DNA from: a virus
Length of the DNA: 64,000 nucleotides
Reading direction: 5' to 3' (one strand)
IMG/VR virus record: IMGVR_UViG_3300028874_000010
Span: 1 to 64,000 of that record
Part shown: positions 3,162 through 24,388 of the stretch, one piece after another
Position numbering within the stretch: the stretch's first letter is position 1
Layout: each line of letters opens with the position of its first letter
Notes under the pieces: generated by a model
Databases searched by the model: none
Seen by the model: only the letters and a program-made list of their open reading frames with translations
Told to the model about the DNA's origin: nothing
Program-made: the position numbers and the translations under genes

Positions 3162-3863
3162 ATGAAAGCTCTTCCATACGTTTACAAATTAGTACATAAA
3201 GAAACAGGCGAATTCTACATAGGTTTTAGATGTGCAAACAAAGTACCAGCAAATGAGGATTTGGGAATTAAATATTTTACTTCTTCAAAATTGGTTAAGA
3301 AAACATTTGAAAATTTTGAATGTTTTGTTTTAGGAGAATTTGAAGATAAAGATGCCGCATATACTTTTGAACAAAATCTTATCAAGGAGTGTTTTTCTAA
3401 TCCATTAATCCTAAACAAACATTGGCAAGATACTAAAACATATTCTATGCTAGGATTTAAGAGGCCAGATCTTGGAAAATTAAATTCTGAAATAAAAAGA
3501 AAACCAAAAGAATATAGAAATTATGATTGTGCTCAATGTGCTACGCCTTTGTCAAAATTAGAATTTATTCATCATAAGCCAAAGGAGCATTATTATTGCA
3601 ATGCTAAATGCCGAAATGAATTTAATAGAGGCCCATCAAAAAAAGGAATTAAGCTTCCGCATTTGTGGGGTAGGGCAGCTTGGAATAAAGGTTTGACTAA
3701 TCCAACTGCAGCAGAAAACGCAAGGAGAGGCGCAGAAAAACAACGCGAATTGGTAACCGGAAGAAAGAGACATTATATTTCAGAGACCGAATGGACCTGG
3801 AAATGTCAAGACAAAGATGGATGGTACATACGCCAAAACGGGGAACAAGTCCCCGTTTTGTGA
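3162..3863 (+). CDS. GIY-YIG homing endonuclease
   Basis: The N-terminal GIY-YIG nuclease domain reads YVYKLVHKETGEFYIGFR (the GIY position is YVY, the YIG motif is intact), followed by the usual Glu in the FEQNLI helix. A CxxC...CxxxC zinc-ribbon-like segment is centred near residue 130. A DNA-binding tail contains WNKGLT, typical of NUMOD3 modules. No interrupted gene flanks it, so it is a free-standing homing endonuclease. Its 3' end overlaps the terminator of the permuted tmRNA gene, which is transcribed towards it, suggesting insertion beside a conserved RNA gene. Expression is probably late and hairpin-controlled. Confidence 0.85.
   Translation: MKALPYVYKLVHKETGEFYIGFRCANKVPANEDLGIKYFTSSKLVKKTFENFECFVLGEFEDKDAAYTFEQNLIKECFSNPLILNKHWQDTKTYSMLGFKRPDLGKLNSEIKRKPKEYRNYDCAQCATPLSKLEFIHHKPKEHYYCNAKCRNEFNRGPSKKGIKLPHLWGRAAWNKGLTNPTAAENARRGAEKQRELVTGRKRHYISETEWTWKCQDKDGWYIRQNGEQVPVL
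3835..3859. terminator. Bidirectional terminator-like hairpin between homing endonuclease and tmRNA
   Basis: The arms AAAACGGGG and CCCCGTTTT form a 9-bp GC-rich stem with a 7-base loop. The T-runs at each side are short (four bases). It overlaps the last codons of the GIY-YIG gene and lies just past the 3' end of the tmRNA coding piece, so it can serve both convergent transcripts. Confidence 0.6.
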
Positions 3864-4415: not shown

Positions 4416-5099
4416 TTATTTATCGTACAAAGGCATTTTTACATCAATTAATTCTAGATCGATGTGTTCAATCTTTAGTTCTGCTATTTTATCATGGTTG
4501 ACTATCCCATCAAAGAATAGTACGCCTCTATAAAAATCGACTGGTGCTGCACCATGGCGTATTTCTATTTCATTTAAGGCGAAAGCAGAATTCCCAACAT
4601 CATACTTATAATTTTGTGTATTTTGGTGGATTAATGGCAACCCATTATTTCCTGGTATTTCGGTTAGCGGTAACTTAAAACCAAGATATTTATTCTGTTT
4701 GTGGATCTCTGGAAACTCATCACCATAATCGACATGTAAAGGAAGAGTTGTACCAGGAATCTGGAGTAAAATAAACATCCTAGTGAATTTATCAAAAACT
4801 TTCAATAATGGTTCAGCAATAGGTTTGATGATTTCTACTATCGGATCATCTTTCCATGTCCAATTAAAATTTGGATCCATCCGTTTAGTGAATGTTCGAT
4901 TTGTTTTTTTATCTACTATTTCACGGAGATGTTTAGTTAGCCAAAAATGCCCAAACTCTTCACCGTTATAGCCCCATCCAACAGGTTTAATTTTGCCAGT
5001 GTTAAGCTGATCTTTCATATGTTGAATAATCAGCTTTTGTTGTTCATTAGTAATGGTGATGTTTGGAATAGAAAATCCAAATTCTTTTGATAATTGCAT
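4416..5099 (-). CDS. Putative 2-oxoglutarate/Fe(II)-dependent oxygenase
   Basis: The 227-residue protein shows a double-stranded beta-helix metal signature: His122-x-Asp124 in LPLHVDYGD, then His182 in IRHGAAP and Arg191 in FYRGVLFF. These match the HxD...H...R pattern of 2OG-Fe(II) dioxygenases of the aspartyl/prolyl hydroxylase type. Substrate unknown; protein side chains or modified bases are both possible in phages. Another protein with the same pattern lies at 36991-37635, and a looser one at 32847-33356. Confidence 0.55.
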   Translation of the reverse strand: MQLSKEFGFSIPNITITNEQQKLIIQHMKDQLNTGKIKPVGWGYNGEEFGHFWLTKHLREIVDKKTNRTFTKRMDPNFNWTWKDDPIVEIIKPIAEPLLKVFDKFTRMFILLQIPGTTLPLHVDYGDEFPEIHKQNKYLGFKLPLTEIPGNNGLPLIHQNTQNYKYDVGNSAFALNEIEIRHGAAPVDFYRGVLFFDGIVNHDKIAELKIEHIDLELIDVKMPLYDK

Positions 5100-17973: not shown

Positions 17974-19296
17974 TTATTTAAATTTAAGTTCGTTAAGTTC
18001 TTTGACATACATATCCCAATCTGTAGTATGTTCAAGACTATTAATATCTGTTTCGATAGCAATGATATCAGTTTCGAGTTTTTCTATTTCGTCTCTGGTG
18101 AGGCTATAGATTCTGATTTGGAGAAGTTTTTCGATCTCTACGAATTTATTTTTCTCTAGTAATGCATAGAGATCAGCTTTACCTTTCTTAGCAAAATCGT
18201 TAGGGCTCTTTAAATAGAATTTAATGAACCGAAGTTTTTCATTTGCCCAGGATAAATCATTCTTAAGATTTTCAATTAGCTTGATTCGGCGTGCTTCGTA
18301 TTTATCCAATCGATATTCAACGAAATAGTTAATGATCTCTTGAGCGCTATTAAAAACTTTCATCTTTCCATCGTGACCCCAACATGTAAAATTCTCAGTG
18401 TCACGAGCAACAAGTTTGAATGTCTTCATCAACTCATCACGACCCATCTCAAAAATCGGTGTTCCGCTTGTTACTCGTGGAACTTTAATTTCAAAATCAA
18501 AACCATCTTCAGTAGAACTATCTATATATTCTTTGATGATGCCTTCATCTTCTAGTTTATTCAGATGTTCCTTATAATCATCCTGGTAGACTCCAATTGG
18601 GAGTTCAGTGATTCGTATGGTTGTACTATTAACAATCTCATAGGCGCCTTCTATGACGGTCTGTTTATCATTCCTATATACTTTGCCTTTGAATCCTTTG
18701 AACCAAGGTAATACTTCTTTTGGCTTCTTCTTTTGAAGAATCGCCAAAATATTGTTCTTGATATCTTCTGGGTTGTAAGAAAGAATTTGTGTCGCATATC
18801 CCGTCCCAGTTCCAGAGACACCATTTACCAAGATCATTGGAAGTGTAGGCAAATATCGAACTGGCTCAATCTGCAAACCATCACTAAGCCGAGTATCGAG
18901 AATTGCGTCATCATCTTTTTTAAAAATCATTCTAAAATTCTTAGAGAGTTCAGTCATGATGTAACGTCCGGCACCGGGTGCCGGATCTAAACGAGATCCG
19001 AATTGGCCATTAGGCATTAGCAAATTCAGATTGTTTGATCCAGCAAATGTTTGGGCCATCTTAGCAATAGTTCCAACTAAAGAAGTTGCACCATGATGAT
19101 AATCCGAAACACCAGCAATATAATTTGCTAATGTTTCAACTCGAGCTTCATCGGCATGTTCGCCGCGCTTAAGCATACCAAACATAACTTTACGTTGGCC
19201 CGGTTTAAAACCGTCGATCGCATCAGCAATAGATCGATGGTTGTCATATACACTGAATAACCTAAATTGGTCATCCATAAATGTTTTAATTTTCAT
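17974..19296 (-). CDS. DNA topoisomerase II subunit A (T4 gp52-like)
   Basis: The 440-residue breakage-reunion subunit equals the size of T4 gp52. The N-terminal winged-helix/tower region has the catalytic Tyr112 in GAGRYIMTELS, together with DGFKPGQRKV and LPTLPMILVNG...GTGTGYA, which are highly conserved in GyrA/ParC/gp52. A long coiled-coil segment follows (residues about 340-430). It lacks the GyrA C-terminal beta-pinwheel, so it would relax DNA rather than introduce supercoils. It works with the split gp39-like subunit encoded just upstream. Confidence 0.93.
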   Translation of the reverse strand: MKIKTFMDDQFRLFSVYDNHRSIADAIDGFKPGQRKVMFGMLKRGEHADEARVETLANYIAGVSDYHHGATSLVGTIAKMAQTFAGSNNLNLLMPNGQFGSRLDPAPGAGRYIMTELSKNFRMIFKKDDDAILDTRLSDGLQIEPVRYLPTLPMILVNGVSGTGTGYATQILSYNPEDIKNNILAILQKKKPKEVLPWFKGFKGKVYRNDKQTVIEGAYEIVNSTTIRITELPIGVYQDDYKEHLNKLEDEGIIKEYIDSSTEDGFDFEIKVPRVTSGTPIFEMGRDELMKTFKLVARDTENFTCWGHDGKMKVFNSAQEIINYFVEYRLDKYEARRIKLIENLKNDLSWANEKLRFIKFYLKSPNDFAKKGKADLYALLEKNKFVEIEKLLQIRIYSLTRDEIEKLETDIIAIETDINSLEHTTDWDMYVKELNELKFK

Positions 19297-19416: not shown

Positions 19417-20184
19417 TCATTCTAAATTTAACCAAACTTTTCTTTTATCTGCTGATCCAGCACCTTTAGAAAAAGCTAAATCTATACTATCTGAATCCTC
19501 ATTTGATTCAATTGTAATTGGAATCAAATGGGTATCCATATCTTCTAGATATGATTTAAAGTCTTTTGCATCTGAAGTAGCCAAGCCTTTATACCATTTC
19601 TTTCTGTATTTTACTTCTTTATTCTTTACTTCCCATTCATCGAATTCATTTTCCGAATAGAAATTAATAATTTTTTTTGGTTTGTCAATGAATACACGAA
19701 CCAATGGTGTTCGAAACATATACACCATCCCAAGTTTAAATAGTTCTGGCCAGAATTTGTTGATCATATTAAATTCAAGACCGCGAATATGGAATCCATC
19801 TAAGTCTTGGTCTGACATGATAATTAACTTTCCAAATCTAAGATCTGAGACTGATTTGACTTCAACACCTAATCGGAGTCCCATTGCTCCCATGAAATTT
19901 TTAAACTCATCATTTTCGAGGAGACGTTTGACTGGAACATCATTAACGTTTAATGGTTTACCTTTGAGTGGGAATGATCCGATATACTTAGCATTCTTTT
20001 CGGTCTTAGCAGAAATAATAGCTTTAGCAGCAGAATTATGGGAGATCACACCCGATGAAAGAGTAAATGTGAAATCTTCATCTACTTCAATGTCAACGCC
20101 GTTTGTATGTTCGATATGTTCGATTGAGACAATATCAACGAGCTCAATAAGGCGCGGATCGAAATTATATTGTTGTGTTTGCAT
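19417..20184 (-). CDS. C-terminal half of topoisomerase II large subunit, led by a split-intein C-fragment
   Basis: Residues 1-50 are an intein C-fragment: a VDIVSIEHIEH strand, DIEVDEDFTF (block F) and GVISHN (block G, penultimate His and terminal Asn). The +1 residue is Ser51. The extein then continues SAAKAI...PLKGKPLNV and MSDQDLDGFHIRG, the second half of the Toprim domain with its DxD metal site. Joined to the N-half at EGD, it restores the EGD-SA motif of GyrB/gp39. Its ATG lies 20 bases inside the end of the nuclease gene upstream, so translation is coupled. Confidence 0.9.
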   Translation of the reverse strand: MQTQQYNFDPRLIELVDIVSIEHIEHTNGVDIEVDEDFTFTLSSGVISHNSAAKAIISAKTEKNAKYIGSFPLKGKPLNVNDVPVKRLLENDEFKNFMGAMGLRLGVEVKSVSDLRFGKLIIMSDQDLDGFHIRGLEFNMINKFWPELFKLGMVYMFRTPLVRVFIDKPKKIINFYSENEFDEWEVKNKEVKYRKKWYKGLATSDAKDFKSYLEDMDTHLIPITIESNEDSDSIDLAFSKGAGSADKRKVWLNLE

Positions 20185-21088
20185 TTAAAAGTTTTTCTTT
20201 GATTGTTAGTACTGTTTGCTCAAATTTTTTATAATCTTTACGACCGTGCAAAACCAAGCTTCCAAATTTTGATTTTTTCTCTTCGATTCTAACATTGTAC
20301 TTTTCATAGTTCATGCCAGCGATTTCTACATATTGATTAATTTTTGGAAAGTAGAAATCATACATCAATATACTACCTTCATAGAACCCGTTGGACTTTA
20401 CTTCCGAAGAAATGCCATACTTTTCCAGCAACGAATAGAAATATCGTTCGCCATTAGAATTCAATAGCATTCCGGTACTTGTTTCAGTAATGTATGAGTA
20501 TGCGGTTTTCTTTCCGTTTGCTGTTGTGCAATTTTTGAGTTTCGTCTGTGCAGCTCGTAACAAACCAGCTTGCACTTTATCTAAGCATCGTCCATAGAAT
20601 AAATTTGCTTGGTACTTTGTATAGTCTTCATAAGAATCATGGTTCTCGGCATAAAATGGGCTTGCGTTTCGTTCTCGTATAATTTTAAGTGTTTCTTCTT
20701 CTGACTCGATTGCTCTCGTCCTACTTACGAAGGCAACAGAATTTGGATTCAACTGCTTCCCATCACATTTATTCATGTGATTTGAGTAACAAAAGAAAAT
20801 AGGTTTCCTATATCCAACGCTGGTAACTGTTATTTCTTTTCCTTTTAACTCGTAGAGTGGAAACCATGTTGAGTTATGGTTTCCACAAAAACAGCAATCG
20901 ACTTTATCTGATCCAGTATTACTAAAGATATCAAACCGAGACTTTGTAATATGAAGCTTTAATGCCTGTTCAAAGCCTTTCTTGGTGTGGTGTGAAACCT
21001 TAATTACTTTATTTGTATTAGTCAGAAAAAATAATTTTTTGTTATTGAAAAAAGCAACAGAATCTTTTTTAATTATACGTGTAGCCAT
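20165..21088 (-). CDS. Vsr/DUF559-like homing endonuclease between the split-gene halves
   Basis: Start chosen at ATG 21088, which has GAAGGA 6 bases upstream; an upstream ATG at 21112 lies in a hairpin loop. The protein has a zinc-finger-like segment (CCFCGNH... with later Cys) near residue 55. The C-terminal nuclease domain reads GERYFYSLLEKYG, then MYDFYFP and QYVEIAG, the Asp and Glu of a Vsr-like PD-(D/E)xK core. It sits exactly between the two halves of a split-intein gene, as in the 'fractured gene' arrangement described from environmental phage DNA. It probably mobilises the split insertion. Confidence 0.75.
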   Translation of the reverse strand: MATRIIKKDSVAFFNNKKLFFLTNTNKVIKVSHHTKKGFEQALKLHITKSRFDIFSNTGSDKVDCCFCGNHNSTWFPLYELKGKEITVTSVGYRKPIFFCYSNHMNKCDGKQLNPNSVAFVSRTRAIESEEETLKIIRERNASPFYAENHDSYEDYTKYQANLFYGRCLDKVQAGLLRAAQTKLKNCTTANGKKTAYSYITETSTGMLLNSNGERYFYSLLEKYGISSEVKSNGFYEGSILMYDFYFPKINQYVEIAGMNYEKYNVRIEEKKSKFGSLVLHGRKDYKKFEQTVLTIKEKLLNANTTI

Positions 21089-21092
21089 CAGA

Positions 21093-21132
21093 GATCCTTC
21101 AGTGATAAACATCTATTTATCACTGAAGGATC
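21093..21132 (-). promoter_or_regulatory. Perfect 17-bp hairpin hiding the nuclease ribosome binding site, with a late box inside
   Basis: The arms at 21093-21109 and 21116-21132 are perfectly complementary with a 6-base loop. The downstream arm on the minus strand contains GAAGGA, the ribosome binding site of the ATG at 21088. The upstream arm and loop contain GATAAATA (21114-21121), a late-promoter variant. Read-through transcripts from the topoisomerase gene would be translationally silent, while late transcripts would lack the upstream arm and be translated. Confidence 0.65.
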
Positions 21133-21139
21133 AAACGAC

Positions 21140-22912
21140 TTAGAAAAGCACCAATGAATGTTTATCAGTATTCAAGTTCTCGCACGATACCAAACAAAAG
21201 GATCCGGTAGAGCGATCCCAGACATAGAACTTATGGTCCATCGTACTGTTGATAAGACCGATATATTCTATATCCAAGTGAAGATCATATTTTTCATCTT
21301 CAATCCGAGTTACTGATTTGATAGCACCAAGAGCAATAGTGTCTGCCAGACGATTTTTCACAAGCGCATGTACAGAACTATCCAAGTCCTTAGCACGCAC
21401 TTCTAGGAACGTTTTAGTCGTCTTATCGTAAGCAATCAAACGGTGTTCTGGGGATACAATATGTTCGATATCACCACACTTGATCTTCACTCCTTCGATC
21501 ACTTTTTTACTAATGCCGAGAATCTTCCTGAGGCGGTTATTATGCGTAAGAATTAAATCTCCAACATTTACGTCTTTAATTTTTACATCGAAGAATTGCT
21601 CATTTTCATAAACTATGATTTGTTCATCTTCGTGAATTGTGTCACCTTCTGTAATAAACAGCAAACATTTACTACGGTCTTTTTTTTCTGTTGCATCGCA
21701 GAACTTTGGAATCCGATTTGGATTCATCTTATCTGTTTCTTTATTTAGTTCTCGTTCTTTAGCTCGTTCAGCCGCTTCAACTTTCATTTCAACCCAATCT
21801 AACACCGATTGAATGATATCAGATTTTGTTAATTTGAGAACCATTTTATCGGTGACTTCAAATGAGGTCCCAAAATTTCTAATTTCTGTAATCAGTTCTT
21901 CTTTTGTTTGGGACGAATATCTGGGTTTGATAATTGTTGCATCAACAAATAGTTGAAGATGATTTAAAATTTCTGATGGCTTGACATCAATTTTATGTTT
22001 CTTATTGAAGTAAGCTCGAAGTTTTGTTGTGATCTGTTCTTGGAGGTATTTGATATGAACACCGCCAAGAGTTGTTTCAGTTGTATTTACGAACGAGACA
22101 TGTTTGAATCCATCTGACTTAGCAATACCAATACGCCAATGATCATTTTCTTCAAAGACATAATCCTGTGTGTAGAACTCAATGTAATCTTTAAATGACT
22201 TGATTTTGATTTGCTTTTTATTTAGGTAAATCTTTAGAGTTGGATTGCAACCAGCAATATCATAAACCCGTTTAATCAGCTTTTCATAATTTCCTTGATC
22301 TAATGAAGTCATACCAAGTTTTTGGTAATCAGGAAGATATGTAATTTTTGTGTATTTTTCTGTGCTTGTTTTAATCTTTGGTTCTGATCTAACCCGGGAA
22401 TTTTCTGTGTGTTTTTGTTCAAATTCCTTTTTGCCATCGCCTGTTTTAACAATGAAATATTGACTGAAAATATTTGTCAATGCCGCACCTTCGCCGTTTT
22501 GACCTGTCAATGTTGAGTCATCATCATCATCAAAATTACTTCCTGCTCGCAATTCAAAAATGTATTCAGGGATGTATTGGTCATATTCTGGGTTCTTGAT
22601 AACTGCAATACCACCATCATCAAGAACCGATATCTCTCCTGTTACTTGATTGATATCAACTTTAATAGTAGAGAGGTGTTGACCTTCTTTTGTTTTTGAG
22701 AAGTCTACTGAATTAGAAATAACTTCGTCAAACATTTTAATAAATCCGGGACACCAGGTCAATTCCTTTTCGGCCATACGTTGTTCTACTTCATCTACGT
22801 AATAGGTGGCCGCTGTGTGAGCCGTAATGCTTCCTAGGTATCTGCCTGGTCTGAGAAGGACATGGGAGATCTCGTCAAGCTTTTTGTGCTTGAATATTTG
22901 TTTTGTTGTCAT
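21140..22912 (-). CDS. N-terminal half of topoisomerase II large subunit (T4 gp39-like) with split-intein N-fragment
   Basis: Residues 1-424 hold the GHKL ATPase domain (DEVISNSVD, DDGG, GQNGEGAALTN), the transducer, and the start of Toprim ending CLLFITEGD, where Glu is catalytic. Residues 425-590 are an intein N-fragment beginning with Thr425 (TIHEDEQIIV), with block A-like VGDLIL and block B-like HIVSPEHRL, then a stop codon. Splicing with the 50-residue C-fragment at 19417-20184 would give a full gp39-like subunit. A Thr in intein position 1 is unusual, as Cys or Ser is the rule. Confidence 0.9.
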   Translation of the reverse strand: MTTKQIFKHKKLDEISHVLLRPGRYLGSITAHTAATYYVDEVEQRMAEKELTWCPGFIKMFDEVISNSVDFSKTKEGQHLSTIKVDINQVTGEISVLDDGGIAVIKNPEYDQYIPEYIFELRAGSNFDDDDDSTLTGQNGEGAALTNIFSQYFIVKTGDGKKEFEQKHTENSRVRSEPKIKTSTEKYTKITYLPDYQKLGMTSLDQGNYEKLIKRVYDIAGCNPTLKIYLNKKQIKIKSFKDYIEFYTQDYVFEENDHWRIGIAKSDGFKHVSFVNTTETTLGGVHIKYLQEQITTKLRAYFNKKHKIDVKPSEILNHLQLFVDATIIKPRYSSQTKEELITEIRNFGTSFEVTDKMVLKLTKSDIIQSVLDWVEMKVEAAERAKERELNKETDKMNPNRIPKFCDATEKKDRSKCLLFITEGDTIHEDEQIIVYENEQFFDVKIKDVNVGDLILTHNNRLRKILGISKKVIEGVKIKCGDIEHIVSPEHRLIAYDKTTKTFLEVRAKDLDSSVHALVKNRLADTIALGAIKSVTRIEDEKYDLHLDIEYIGLINSTMDHKFYVWDRSTGSFCLVSCENLNTDKHSLVLF

Positions 22913-23704: not shown

Positions 23705-24388
23705 TTAATTGAAAAAAGATTTAAAAAGTTCTTCTTTTGAAATTGAGCATTTTGTACTCTTCTTTAGATTTTCATATTTTGGAATCATTTCTAAATTACA
23801 TATATTACCTATAATATAGGCTGGAATCTTATTTTTAAATCCCTCATAAATTGAAAATCTATGATCTAGATGAAAAGCATCCCAATCATTCCCTCTTAAT
23901 TCTATATTGTTTAATTTTTGGACATCTGTAATGGACCAAACTATTTCACAATATTTTTTAAAATCCTTAAGATTATGAGCTTCTATTTTATTGCATTTTA
24001 TAATTTGATACGTATCATAACATGTTTTAGAACAAAAATCAGAATATCCTATTTTTATGTTTTTAAATTTTCTTGTTCTCTTAACACATTGACAGCATAT
24101 AAAATTTGATGGAGTAGTTTCAAATACATGATTGTATAATTTTTCTTCTTCAGTTTTACCAAGCTGTAAAGATTTAATATAAACAGAAAATTTTGGTATC
24201 TTCTTATAAAATTTATAGATATCTACTATATTATTATGGTTGCTTTTGATAAGATCTTTGATTGCGTCTTTTAATTTATTGCTATCAAATTCATTTTTAT
24301 TGATGTAATTTGCATACTCAACGTATTTTTTTAATTTATACTCTTTTTGTTTTATTTCTTCTATTTCAACTGTTTTTTTAGTTGACAT
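23705..24388 (-). CDS. HNH homing endonuclease
   Basis: The 227-residue protein is more AT-rich and lysine-rich than its neighbours. A zinc-ribbon CCQC...CSKTC lies at about residues 98-122. The HNH nuclease motif follows: FHLDHRFSIYEGF, then NICNLEMIPKYENLKK. It resembles free-standing phage HNH enzymes. The adjacent structured non-coding region suggests the two came as one mobile unit. No late-promoter hairpin is seen in front of it. Confidence 0.8.
   Translation of the reverse strand: MSTKKTVEIEEIKQKEYKLKKYVEYANYINKNEFDSNKLKDAIKDLIKSNHNNIVDIYKFYKKIPKFSVYIKSLQLGKTEEEKLYNHVFETTPSNFICCQCVKRTRKFKNIKIGYSDFCSKTCYDTYQIIKCNKIEAHNLKDFKKYCEIVWSITDVQKLNNIELRGNDWDAFHLDHRFSIYEGFKNKIPAYIIGNICNLEMIPKYENLKKSTKCSISKEELFKSFFN

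Follow-up and report, generated by a model that had tools for sequence, protein, structure and literature searches.

Fractured genes carrying split inteins were reportedly described from environmental phages by Dassa et al. in 2009 (gp41-1, NrdJ-1 and IMPDH-1). In this study a 64-kb stretch of DNA (hereafter the window), part of the 112,368-base IMG/VR virus record IMGVR_UViG_3300028874_000010, was analyzed, in which the gene for the large subunit of topoisomerase II (gp39) lies in two halves on either side of a predicted nuclease open reading frame (ORF). Two halves, intein fragments and a nuclease between them are also found in the DNA polymerase B gene of Pseudomonas phage MIJ3, a different host gene, where the nuclease is an HNH ORF (PMC6892783). 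The same enzyme subunit is split in phage T4, in which genes 39 and 60 are separated by a homing-endonuclease insertion, mobA/60.1 (PMC3014915); in contrast to the window, the T4 split involves no intein, the halves assemble unspliced, and gene 60 is subject to ribosome bypassing. No intein in a phage topoisomerase II large subunit was found in a literature search whose scope did not include the founding fractured-gene paper. With this locus, the fractured-gene class gains an enzyme of DNA topology, interrupted within a catalytic motif.

The locus is likely to be a mobile element based on a split intein that interrupts gp39 at the EGD|S motif of the Toprim domain and restores it by trans-splicing. 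Its anatomy, exact junction, family and patchy distribution could be established at the level of sequence. The order along the minus strand is a 590-amino-acid (aa) ORF (21140-22912), a 315-aa ORF (20165-21112), a 255-aa ORF (19417-20184), and then gp52. The following features were identified.

21641-22912, minus strand: N-extein of gp39, with the ATPase, the transducer and the start of Toprim, ending ...LFITEGD (PHROG 543, E value (E) 1e-104; empty site in the intact gp39 of relative L009)
21143-21640, minus strand: intein N-fragment, 166 aa, residue 1 Thr (alignment with relatives; profile match to gp41-1, E 5.6e-7; AlphaFold2 (AF2) model with a predicted local distance difference test score (pLDDT) of 83.9)
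21638-21640, minus strand: ACA, the Thr codon at position 1 of the intein (relatives with a readable N-half: Cys in 14 of 14)
21350-21640, minus strand: canonical N-intein part, approximately residues 1-97, with blocks A, N2, B and N4 (residues 1-102 align with inteins in the structure comparison)
21143-21349, minus strand: extension, approximately residues 98-166, in which the block B/N4 half-Hint recurs in diverged form (hhalign 98.0%; the AF2 model shows the strand order twice)
21093-21132, minus strand: perfect 17-bp hairpin over the AAGGA upstream of nuclease Met9, holding GATAAATA (-33.5 kcal/mol, z -7.0)
20165-21112, minus strand: homing-endonuclease-like ORF, 315 aa, start possibly at Met9 (21088), with an NPNS...SPFY Cys-rich module and a nuclease-like YDFYFP...VEIAGM domain at the C-terminus (alignment A4)
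20035-20184, minus strand: 50-aa C-fragment of the intein, which has an ATG of its own and contains blocks F (VDIEV) and G (GVISHN) (alignment of 14 C-fragments; intein_Cterm 0.065, below the cut-off)
19417-20034, minus strand: C-extein of gp39, with Ser+1, the rest of Toprim including DQDLDG, and the C-terminal domain (PHROG 543 positions 446-637, E 1e-46; TOPRIM_C, 2e-23)
17974-19296, minus strand: gp52, topoisomerase II medium subunit, intact in the window (PF00521, E 2.6e-87)

The profile of the topoisomerase II large subunit (PHROG 543) matches the N-half over aa 8-424 (profile positions 27-445) and the C-half over aa 51-253 (positions 446-637). Because the two matches adjoin at 445|446 with no profile position missing, the halves together make up one gp39, as the initial annotation had proposed; they are kept apart by 166 + 50 intein residues and the nuclease ORF. 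The position of the insertion was given by an intact gp39 in another virus, L009 (IMGVR_UViG_3300028585_000513), which is 58% identical to the window gp39 overall and 70% identical in the C-half. This gene reads ...LFITEGDSAAKAI... across the site (KKDRSKCMLFITEGDSAAKAIISAKTEKNAKFIG at the site itself, ...KKDRSKCMLFITEGDSAAKAIISAKTEKNAKFIGSFPLKGKPLNV... over a longer stretch). The window is nearly the same as L009 up to LFITEGD, after which 166 residues precede the stop; at the site it reads ...KCLLFITEGD, the intein, and then SAAKAIISAKTEKNAKYIG. The third ORF opens with 50 residues ending in GVISHN, followed by SAAKAIISAKTEKNAKYIGSF. Since the junction is sealed at EGD|SAAKAI in the intact gene, the insertion separates the D from the S of the Toprim motif. 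The placement of the N-fragment after EGD and of the 50-residue C-fragment before SAAKAI, and the EGD-SA motif that joining of the halves would restore, all of which had been claimed from the window sequence, agree with the L009 sequence. In four relatives (L001, L019, L020 and L046) the N-extein closes with EGL in place of EGD, and splicing would give them a Toprim motif of EGLSA.

The inserted fragments carry the features of a split intein. Blocks A, N2, B and N4 were found in the N-fragment, and blocks F and G, a His-Asn end and Ser+1 in the C-fragment (VDIEV...GVISHN|S; 14 C-fragments aligned). A profile of the N-fragment family matches the gp41-1 split intein structures (6riz, E 5.6e-7; 6qaz, 1.1e-6), and Pfam Intein_splicing was matched in 9 of 11 family members, the best at 6e-8. 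Modeling of the N-fragment with AF2 gave a pLDDT of 35.6 from the single sequence, and 83.9 with a predicted template modeling score of 0.53 from 10 sequences. Residues 1-102 of the latter model align with gp41-1, NrdJ-1, DnaE and hedgehog Hint structures at Z of about 5-6; values under 8 may reflect a common arrangement, so the structure alignment is taken as supporting and the sequence profile carries the argument. Foldseek alone gave no match to the model at E 0.001, and phmmer with the window N-fragment alone gave no match in the PDB.

By its anatomy, the element can be grouped with the split inteins known from fractured genes of phages. It has in common with them a host gene divided into two ORFs with intein fragments, which flank a homing endonuclease ORF, and the gp41-1 profile match; this agrees with the initial annotation, which had recognized a split intein in the fractured-gene arrangement at the catalytic motif of gp39. 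It differs from them in its target (EGD|S of gp39), in an N-fragment longer by about 70 residues (the duplicated half-Hint), in the Thr1 of the window, and in the presence of three nuclease types at one site.

The same layout of gp39 was found by tblastn in LR756500.1, a phage of 462 kb. Scans of viral contigs with single proteins gave few relatives; a degenerate DNA pattern for the junction of block G and the extein (...G-x-I-S-H-N-S-A) succeeded instead and gave 21 stretches in viral contigs. Gp39 with a C-fragment at the EGD|S site accounts for 14 of them (L012-L015, L018-L022, L024-L027 and L029), two pairs of which are nearly identical (L018/L026 and L019/L027). Fractured gp39 is therefore present in at least 15 records besides the window: 14 viral contigs and LR756500.1. 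In bacterial and archaeal genomes the same junction pattern, one exact pattern and not a full survey, retrieved no inteins. Split and intact genes are intermixed in the extein tree, with four changes, at least three of them forced by well-supported branches: the intact L009 is sister to the split L015 at 100/100, and the intact L005 adjoins the split L025 and L029. This fits repeated gain or loss of the cassette, as far as can be judged from the tree; the intein tree was poorly resolved, and its support is too weak to address co-transfer with the exteins. The 14 viral contigs and one huge phage suffice to study a split-intein life cycle from intact site through full cassette to cassette with a decayed nuclease. 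The C-halves of L013, L014 and L015 are cut again further on, in L014 with a second intein N-fragment after the Toprim DAD motif.

The window departs from its relatives at the first residue of the intein. In the 14 relatives whose N-half is readable (12 distinct), the residue following EGD, EGL or EGN is always Cys; in the window alone it is Thr. One sequencing error does not account for it, because ACA has no base in common with either Cys codon at any position. The other catalytic positions are kept: the block-B S-x-x-H, Asp31 in block F, the His-Asn of block G, and Ser+1. Splicing with Thr1 is plausible on these grounds. It has been stated that class 1 inteins are defined by Ser1, Thr1 or Cys1 (PMC5222942).

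If so, fragment assembly, Thr1 splicing and homing would proceed as follows. The two half-proteins of gp39 would be translated separately, and the 166-aa N-fragment and 50-aa C-fragment would associate into a Hint fold. Thr1 would activate the peptide bond after EGD through an N-to-O acyl shift, Ser+1 would take over the N-extein, and cyclization of Asn50 would release a complete gp39 in which the motif reads EGDSA. The intervening ORF would act as a homing endonuclease gene, spreading the whole cassette into gp39 genes that lack the intein. Should splicing occur, first nucleophiles beyond Cys and Ser could be studied with the Thr1 intein, which would be useful where cysteine chemistry is unwanted.

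Several observations weigh against trans-splicing in the window. Its own matches to intein models in Pfam and NCBIfam are below the cut-offs (Hint_2 0.0082, Intein_splicing 0.0087, intein_Cterm 0.065), so that of the intein assignment made in the initial annotation, the family-level match is clear and the match of the window's own fragments is weak. Thr1 stands alone against 14 of 14 readable Cys relatives, and in another account residue 1 of class 1 inteins is restricted to Cys or Ser (PMC7664689). Moreover, T4 gp39 and gp60 function together unspliced (PMC3014915), which means that a working enzyme does not strictly depend on splicing. It is conceivable, if rather unlikely, that Thr1 blocks or nearly blocks splicing and that the gp39 halves form a non-covalent pair held by the intein fragments, like T4 gp39/gp60. 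The T4 precedent of a working split large subunit (PMC3014915, PMC2988022), together with the uniqueness of Thr1, is why this alternative is kept. However, retention of all other catalytic positions would be unexpected for a long-dead intein, leftover intein residues beside EGD and S would break the Toprim motif, and Thr is a chemically possible nucleophile and falls within the wider definition of class 1 (PMC5222942).

Class 2 inteins have Cys+1, and class 3 inteins carry the WCT signature, with Trp at B:12 and Cys at F:4. A bypass of Thr1, in which Ser+1 attacks the N-terminal junction as in class 2 or an internal Cys does so as in class 3, is very improbable: the +1 residue is Ser, the WCT signature is missing (Leu at B:12, Asp31 at block F position 4), which removes class 3 from the candidates, and the readable relatives all have Cys1, as in class 1. 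Joining of the ORFs by an RNA-level intron, or their reading as one through recoding, is hardly credible despite gene 60 bypassing in the same enzyme of T4 (PMC3014915) and the strong hairpin between the ORFs, as it is already contradicted by the intein fragments being conserved coding sequence: each is open and has intein motifs, a separate start is present for the C-half, and in 15 other records the junction is flanked by the same protein motifs. Trans-splicing with Thr1 as the first nucleophile remains our preferred reading.

The length of the N-fragment is explained by a duplication. Twelve of the 13 listed N-fragments have 65-85 extra residues past the canonical part of about 97, and that of L021 ends at 101 residues. 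In hhalign, alignment columns 35-100 matched columns 101-176 with a probability of 98.0 and a score of 64.2, whereas none of 150 controls with shuffled columns scored above 16.1; narrower segments of the two copies gave 98.3. The strand order of the block B/N4 segment recurs in the extension of the AF2 model. A TxxH-like motif in the second copy is kept in some members (TMDH in the window) and gone in others. We infer that the extension may have a structural role at the split point. No report of a duplicated half-Hint segment was found for split inteins. The initial annotation had passed over this segment, as well as Thr1 and the hairpin at 21093-21132.

The ORF between the gp39 halves belongs to a homing-endonuclease family and is predicted to be a nuclease by its membership of alignment A4. 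The nuclease ORFs of the locus are one family by their N-terminal part, in which Cys73/76/108/116 and NPNS...NKSPFY are conserved. Their C-terminal nuclease domains fall into three groups that are mutually unalignable: an EYNGxxWHP type (L012, L013, L014, L018, L020, L021 and L025), an EIAGM type (the window, L015 and L022, with a variant in L024), and an HNH type (L001, L019 and L027). In EDxHD/Vsr-type homing endonucleases, N-terminal DNA-binding (CapR-like) modules are followed by an EDxHD/Vsr-like nuclease (PMC12350094). At this locus, a Cys-rich module is combined with an EYNGxxWHP nuclease in several relatives, whereas the C-terminal domain of the window (VEIAGMNYEKYN) has EIAGM without WHP and is unalignable with that type (hhalign against the EYNGxxWHP-bearing relatives, 1.9%). 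The window ORF gave weak PHROG matches to resolvase/endonuclease families (0.0035 and 0.0063) and another weak, PvuRts1I-like match. The nuclease had initially been called Vsr-like; since these matches are all weak, that name is not established for it, and what it shares with the EYNGxxWHP (EDxHD/Vsr-type) relatives is the N-terminal module. Tentatively, and with a good deal of reserve, the locus might represent a gp39-specific split-intein family that splices with Thr1 and has a duplicated half-Hint at its split point, and whose homing endonucleases have exchanged catalytic domains of three folds, with no change of N-terminal module or insertion site.

In L029 approximately 190 bases lie between the halves (4707 to 4899); a full nuclease ORF is absent and the intein is retained. 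One frame of this gap reads FWVNPNNKEITASEAYLKQELK...FILEIWSDEDNKVDKVLNFIKNNI and, compared by eye, resembles the end of the L025 nuclease, so the gap looks like a C-terminal remnant of the nuclease gene. In the window itself, the C-terminus of an ORF directly upstream of gp39 (23705-24388, minus strand) aligns at 41% over 68 aa with the HNH domain in the gp39 nuclease of L019; on sequence grounds it is likely to be a free-standing HNH gene sharing the domain of the L019 cassette.

It has been shown for I-TevI, segB and mobE that a hairpin sequesters the ribosome-binding site and has a late promoter inside, and that I-TevI also has a homing-site-like operator (PMC2988022). The window has in common with them a hairpin over the ribosome-binding site, a late-promoter-like sequence inside it, and an upstream resemblance to the homing site; it differs in that the gene belongs to a split intein, and not to an intron or a free-standing gene, and in that TATAAATA is not enriched. 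Because the hairpin, in the coding-strand orientation, contains the AAGGA ahead of Met9, Met9 is the likely start of the nuclease, with its ribosome-binding site sequestered. Equally strong hairpins were found at the matching place in L014 and L015 (z -6.3 and -6.8), and most other relatives are without one. No U-run follows the hairpin, and an intrinsic terminator was rejected. The T4-type late promoter TATAAATA occurs 6 times in the window against 8 expected, though GATAAATA lies in the hairpin; the nuclease may be expressed late. The nuclease ORF opens with MFITEGS (21088-21132), an echo of the extein LFITEGD, and the DNA upstream of it is similar to the homing site (p about 0.005 in a comparison chosen post hoc). 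In nine relatives this similarity was unsupported (Fisher p 0.68), and it was seen in the window alone; by analogy with I-TevI, homing-site mimicry upstream of the nuclease may be regarded as a lead.

A GIY-YIG homing-endonuclease-like gene is located elsewhere in the window (3162-3863, plus strand), on the strand opposite to its neighbors. TATAAATA was found approximately 20 bases upstream of it, within a modest hairpin (z -2.6).

Other replication genes of these phages are also fractured. A different split intein divides gp52 (GyrA-like) at its active-site YHHGD|S in L001 (8658-11380 of LR756500.1), where a nuclease ORF lies between the halves, and in L051, from the record of L020; both topoisomerase subunits can thus carry split inteins in one phage. 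Clamp-loader-like (gp44-type) genes with split-intein N-fragments after DE|C were observed in L032 (LR756500.1), L054 (the record of L013) and L007, the last with apparently two split inteins and nuclease ORFs in one clamp-loader-like gene.

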